From Salisaeta longa DSM 21114 (lineage in GTDB: Bacteria > Bacteroidota > Rhodothermia > Rhodothermales > Salinibacteraceae), in contig NZ_ATTH01000001.1 in the NCBI RefSeq assembly GCF_000419585.1, positions 1,386,005-1,450,004 of the forward strand: DNA of 64,000 bases, written 5' to 3'. Both the position numbers and the translations under genes were made by a program. How positions within the stretch are numbered: the stretch's first letter is position 1; each line of letters begins with the position of its first letter. Below the pieces are notes generated by a model, which saw only the letters and a list, made by a program, of their open reading frames with translations, was not told the origin of the DNA and did no database searches. Shown here one piece after another: positions 25,171 through 25,696 of this stretch.

Positions 25171-25244
<74 letters not shown>

Positions 25245-25256
25245 CACACATATGAT

Positions 25257-25589
25257 GCGCCCGTAGCTCAGTTGGATAGAGCATCGGACTTTAGAAACGG
25301 AGCCTGCGCCGGGAAACCCAACCGGCGCAGTGGATGGTGCTGTATCGGGGAACCCGCAGCGGCCTGGCCGGCGGCAACCCCGAGGAAACCGACTGCTTTC
25401 CGAAGGGTCGTGCCGGTGCAACGACGGTAGGCGAGCATGTGCAATGCACACGGGATCCGTAGAGGCCATACGCACCACGCCTGCAACGGCGAAGAGATGG
25501 TCCATCCGCAACGCTCCCTGCGAGTGGTGACGAAAGTCACACGGCGGACGCTAATCCGGAGGTCGCAGGTTCGAATCCTGCCGGGCGTG
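25257..25589 (+). tRNA. tRNA-Arg (anticodon UCU) interrupted by an intron
   Basis: The 5' exon (25257-25291) has acceptor GCGCCCG, D arm GCTCAGTTGGATAGAGC and the 5' half of the anticodon arm. The 3' exon (25551-25589) has CTAATCCGG, the T arm GCAGGTTCGAATCCTGC and acceptor CGGGCGT. Joined, they give anticodon loop CTTCTAA (UCU) on a 5-bp stem. The intervening 259 bases resemble a group I intron. The acceptor closes with a G-U pair; CCA is not encoded. Without splicing the tRNA would be non-functional, unless another copy exists. Confidence 0.88.
25292..25550 (+). ncRNA. Group I intron (probable subgroup IC3) in tRNA-Arg anticodon
   Basis: The 5' junction follows a U and the last intron base is G, as group I splicing requires. 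P1 can form between exon GGACUU and intron GAGCCU with the U-G pair at the splice site. Several blocks resemble those I remember from the Azoarcus tRNA-Ile intron: TGCGCCGGGAAACC, GGATGGTG, GTAGAG..., and near the 3' end GAGTGG followed by CGAAAGTCACAC. No endonuclease ORF lies inside. Length fits small bacterial tRNA introns (about 200-300 nt). Splits the anticodon between positions 34 and 35. Confidence 0.85.
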
Positions 25590-25696
25590 CGGGCACCGAT
25601 GCGTTCTGTCATGCTTGCGCTGTCTTCACACGGACCGCCGCGCATGGTTGGAACAGTCGATGCAGGGCAGCATCCAACACAACCCTCCATTTTTGT

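Follow-up and report, generated by a model that had tools for sequence, protein, structure and literature searches.

A group I intron in the anticodon of the only tRNA-Arg(UCU) gene found in Salisaeta longa, and its relatives in bacteria and phages

The tRNA-Arg(UCU) gene of Salisaeta longa DSM 21114 is interrupted within its anticodon, between U34 and C35, by a group I intron of 259 nt. The stretch of DNA analysed, called the window here, comprises 64,000 nucleotides of contig NZ_ATTH01000001.1 (positions 1,386,005 to 1,450,004 of the forward strand); all coordinates below are those of the window. In the reading preferred here, the insert is an IC3-type group I intron at site 34/35 of a single-copy tRNA gene, it would remove itself from the transcript, it lacks an endonuclease gene, and it belongs to a lineage that has spread horizontally. 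The probability of this reading as a whole is put at about 0.92. The locus itself represents a new host tRNA and a modest structural variant. The main interest lies in the lineage, which is specific for one tRNA, crosses phyla and is common to bacteria and phages. The literature searched, in which subscription papers were thinly covered, contained no description of a group I intron in a bacterial tRNA-Arg(UCU) gene. This agrees with the original prediction, made from the sequence of the window, that a UCU host in this phylum may be new or poorly documented. A host tRNA, a structural variant in which J3/4 and P6 are exchanged together, and a phylum are thereby added to the bacterial tRNA introns.

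The 5′ exon (25257-25291, forward strand, as are all features described here) ends with U34, and the 3′ exon (25551-25590) begins with C35; the intron occupies 25292-25550. When the exons are joined they form a 75-nt tRNA with regular stems, which ARAGORN calls tRNA-Arg(tct), and the 5′ exon is also defined by the uninterrupted exon of relatives. The split of the anticodon between U34 and C35 had been predicted and is borne out, as is the extent of the gene (25257-25589), whose 3′ end was found at 25589/25590, at most one base off. In the unspliced window, ARAGORN and the Rfam tRNA model at its gathering score report only the flanking tRNA-Pro(UGG) and tRNA-Cys. The intron mode of ARAGORN gives a tRNA-Leu(tag) with a 257-nt intron at the locus, a false solution. 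Matches to YrlA near 25192 and 25541 reflect a resemblance to tRNA arms and score below the YrlA gathering score.

Homologous introns of 205-648 nt (210-631 nt inside the host family) occur at the identical junction in relatives, and other relatives, including near ones, carry this tRNA uninterrupted, with 0 nt at the junction. Cultured relatives that have the intron include Salinivenus iranica, S. lutea and Longimonas halophila, the last with a PDDEXK protein. The insert is therefore not a chance arrangement.

The ends and the guide of the intron are those of a group I intron. The internal guide GGAG (25299-25302) is conserved in all 20 homologues. P1 is formed between GAG of this guide and CUU at the end of the 5′ exon, and has a U.G pair at the splice site. 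For P10, C35 is a possible partner of the first G of the guide. Both the CUU/GAG pairing and the terminal G (25550) are present in 20 of 20 homologues. The predicted U and G ends and the P1 with U-G at the splice site are thus found as described, with the exon ending in U, the intron in G, and P1 formed by 5′-CUU and GAG. P1 of the window copy has only 3 bp and P10 only 1 bp. Downstream of the guide lies a P2 hairpin (25304-25330; folding energy -19.5 kcal/mol, z -3.5). P4 (25345-25350 with 25378-25383) encloses P5, so that this element spans 25345-25383, and P6 (25384-25458) is formed by GGA (25384-25386) and UCC (25456-25458) with an extended variable loop; both were placed by the core alignment and by covariation. 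P3 is formed by 25335-25340 and 25472-25477 and P7 by 25464-25469 and 25497-25502; between the 3′ strands of P3 and P7 lies the P8 hairpin (25478-25491), and all three are supported by covariation. The P9 domain (25505-25548) folds as a three-way junction with a GAAA-capped hairpin at 25527-25540. L5 is short and there is no large P5abc domain.

Covariation was assessed on 17 core sequences. The 28 pairs of P3, P4, P5, P6, P7 and P8 are standard in 99.4% of cells, and 11 core pairs are changed on both sides, compared with 5.6 in shuffles and 0-2 in slid controls. For example, four of the six pairs of P3 are changed on both sides in these 17 sequences, and P7 has compensated pairs, one of which occurs in three states. 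P3 and P7 cross, forming the pseudoknot that group I requires.

The standard Rfam model RF00028 gave no match at the locus even at E 10, none in the whole genome, and none at the gathering score in the 17 tRNA homologues scanned. RF00028 is a detection model and not the definition of group I, and its silence meant that group I identity had to be decided by other means. Two covariance models were used. R1 was built from the tRNA-Arg(UCU) intron family itself and recovers nearly all RF00028-recognised introns tested in the phylum, those of tRNA-Leu(UAA) best. R2 was built from 19 tRNA introns detected by RF00028, none of them from the tRNA-Arg(UCU) 34/35 family, with the alignment fitted to the structure of R1. 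It finds 25331-25511 as its sole match in the 64-kb window (39.7 bits, E 3.3e-7), and homologues of the window intron score up to 72 bits. A search with group I models, proposed with the original prediction, was therefore negative with RF00028 and positive with R2; the independent model and the covariation both show the core, and the predicted group I intron in tRNA-Arg(UCU) is confirmed. The insert belongs to IC3, the subgroup of compact tRNA introns, as seen in its compact core, its GNRA-capped P9 hairpin, and the mutual model matches with tRNA-Leu introns.

In introns recognised by RF00028, J3/4 reads AAAU or close to it and P6 is GCC/GGU. In the tRNA-Arg(UCU) 34/35 family these elements are UGUAU and GGA/UCC, a difference that may explain the failure of RF00028. 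J3/4 and P6 touch in the triple-helix scaffold of group I introns, and for that reason their joint exchange looks like a compensated variant. As this lineage is invisible to the standard Rfam model, any census based on RF00028 undercounts.

The closest known relatives in architecture are the tRNA-Leu(UAA) introns, including those of four genomes examined here. They share with the window family the 34/35 site, the compact architecture and the GAG guide, and are the best outside matches to its model (61-67 bits). They differ in the guide, which is UGAG and pairs with A35, whereas that of the window family is GGAG and pairs with C35. They also have the J3/4 and P6 sequences of the RF00028-recognised introns and form a separate clade. 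The introns of Azoarcus tRNA-Ile(CAU) and Agrobacterium tRNA-Arg(CCU) are other known bacterial tRNA group I introns, and share with the window intron the group I core and a host site in a tRNA anticodon loop. In family f15, Azoarcus-like introns even occupy the same host gene, tRNA-Arg(UCU), but are inserted after U36, between UCU and AA, two bases beyond the 34/35 site. Their terminal sequence is ACAAACCUG, RF00028 detects them, and they make up a clade of their own (99/99). The resemblance to Azoarcus claimed in the original prediction therefore holds for the group I core and fails as to the type of insertion. The Azoarcus-like type has been observed in tRNA-Arg(UCU) of sister families, at seven loci.

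The tRNA inventory of S. longa was drawn up with RF00005 and ARAGORN on fetched stretches of the genome (3.4 Mb in 3 contigs, completeness 98.5%). Among the 45 other tRNAs found, there is no second tRNA-Arg(UCU), and thus no trace of the uninterrupted copy that the original prediction had considered. The other arginine tRNAs are Arg(ACG), Arg(CCG) and Arg(CCU). The 16S rRNA gene, tRNA-Ile(GAU) and tRNA-Ala(UGC) were not found in the genome either, so that the rRNA operon is probably absent from the assembly.

By the decoding rules, tRNA-Arg(UCU) is the expected reader of AGA, and with no other copy found in the genome the split gene is the sole one. AGA is rare and not absent, making up 2 of about 251 arginine codons in nine long open reading frames of the window. 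Decoding of AGA should thus require splicing. Annotation pipelines will list such genomes as lacking tRNA-Arg(UCU). By analogy with the group I family, the intron would leave the precursor by two guanosine-initiated transesterifications. The guide sequence suggests that GAG keeps CUU of the 5′ exon in place, the U.G pair lying at the 5′ splice site, and that C35 can pair with the G preceding GAG for exon joining. Splicing would restore the anticodon and with it the tRNA. A sense-codon tRNA dependent on ribozyme activity in a family of halophiles is a natural setting in which to test how RNA folds at high salt.

When all GTDB contigs were scanned with the core pattern, 18 loci matched. In 17 the host is tRNA-Arg(UCU), interrupted at the junction between CUU and CUAA, in Bacteroidota, Rhodothermota and Chloroflexota. 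Host tRNAs were read from the exon sequences; brute-force splicing gave many spurious anticodons. In Gottesmanbacteria a 23S rRNA gene seems to contain an inserted sequence that fits this core pattern. In a tree of the core (116 columns), the tRNA-Arg(UCU) 34/35 introns form one clade (100/100), apart from every other tRNA intron that was sampled from the phylum.

Several bacterial members of the lineage carry a putative means of homing. A PDDEXK_5 endonuclease gene lies in P6 of six introns, and in these the stop codon TAG falls within the core motif CCGTAGAG. The endonuclease profile matches PDB 2OST, which is I-Ssp6803I; a phmmer search of PDB with one of the endonucleases gave no match. 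The Synechocystis tRNA-fMet intron with I-Ssp6803I is likewise a mobile tRNA intron with a PD-(D/E)XK endonuclease of the PDDEXK_5 family. It is found in another tRNA at another site, in contrast to the window lineage, whose bacterial endonuclease genes lie in P6 with their stop inside the core motif and whose window copy has no such gene. No PDDEXK_5 gene was found in the window's intron or elsewhere in the S. longa genome. As to mobility, then, occupied and empty alleles are present in near relatives, and the window copy has no endonuclease gene. The distribution and gene content suggest that the lineage spread horizontally by homing, that the homing enzyme would be a PD-(D/E)XK protein carried in P6 in bacteria and an HNH protein carried in the 5′ part in phages, and that the window intron is an endonuclease-less member of this lineage specific for tRNA-Arg(UCU). 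Two further PDDEXK_5 genes have been observed. One is located in the 5′ part of an intron in a tRNA-fMet gene, before P3; the other contains an in-frame stop and adjoins a complete tRNA without an intron.

The presence of the intron in several genera of one family could also reflect vertical inheritance within that family combined with frequent loss, and loss of group I introns is plausible. The data do not reject a tree in which all Rhodothermota-like rows are kept together (p 0.135). A tree in which only the introns of the host family are held monophyletic is, however, rejected, if at a modest level (AU p 0.021), two Chloroflexota introns branch beside the group containing the window copy, and endonuclease genes and phage carriers exist. 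Inheritance by descent alone is considered unlikely, and horizontal movement is preferred.

A self-splicing intron is also preferred to a degenerate one, in which the gene would be a pseudogene or splice poorly and AGA would be read otherwise. The branch of the window intron is long (0.33), so that some decay of unaided self-splicing is possible, P10 is reduced, and selection may be weak given the rarity of AGA. Yet every core pair of the window copy is a standard pair, both exons are intact, no other UCU tRNA was found, and AGA still occurs; degeneracy is very improbable on these grounds. The silence of RF00028 would fit an insert that is not group I at all, either an intron spliced by proteins or an inserted element whose ends imitate those of group I. 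This is almost certainly wrong: the P3-P7 pseudoknot has compensated pairs, the slid controls argue against an alignment artefact, and R2 matches the intron independently. The U and G ends, the guide, the P9 domain, and the homing endonucleases of group I type in homologues point the same way. The self-splicing group I intron thus stays the preferred reading of the locus.

The core pattern of the tRNA-Arg(UCU) 34/35 introns has also been detected in 17 viral contigs. In 12 of them, two of which (L174 and L176) look like one sequence, joining the exons yields tRNA-Arg(UCU), and the intron sits at 34/35. One phage locus with a split tRNA-Arg(UCU) includes a T4-like portal gene, and another has genes for DNA ligase, RNA ligase and CCA-adding enzyme. 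Both of the phage introns checked (n=2) contain an HNH_3 endonuclease. Ten phage introns were included in the tree, where they cluster together (100/99), either within the bacterial introns or next to them. A blastn search of phage records with the window locus found no intron, and its matches were mostly to the neighbouring tRNA-Pro.

A 2014 review described phage introns as all located in protein genes and saw little evidence that bacterial introns move horizontally (PMC3984707); the distribution of the present lineage makes both statements directly testable. We tentatively suggest, at somewhat under even odds, that an intron lineage specialised on tRNA-Arg(UCU) moves back and forth between phages and several bacterial phyla, with HNH enzymes in phages and PD-(D/E)XK enzymes in bacteria, and that no phage tRNA gene split by a self-splicing intron was known before these. 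The bridge could be this tRNA, since phages often have a copy of their own.

Four other viral contigs have the core pattern outside tRNA genes, probably in protein genes. A different arrangement, in which the PD-(D/E)XK endonuclease of the intron family is free-standing beside an intact tRNA-Arg(UCU), has been observed at 21 viral loci and in phages Sf-FR1 (PV340855) and Herod (MW316732). At five of these viral loci, the unit of tRNA-Arg(UCU) and endonuclease seems to have inserted into a second tRNA gene and split it in two. It is as if the cassette supplied a replacement for the tRNA it breaks, which would make it a home-and-rescue element. In two of the five (L193 and L194) the broken second tRNA is itself Arg(UCU), split between CUUCU and AA.
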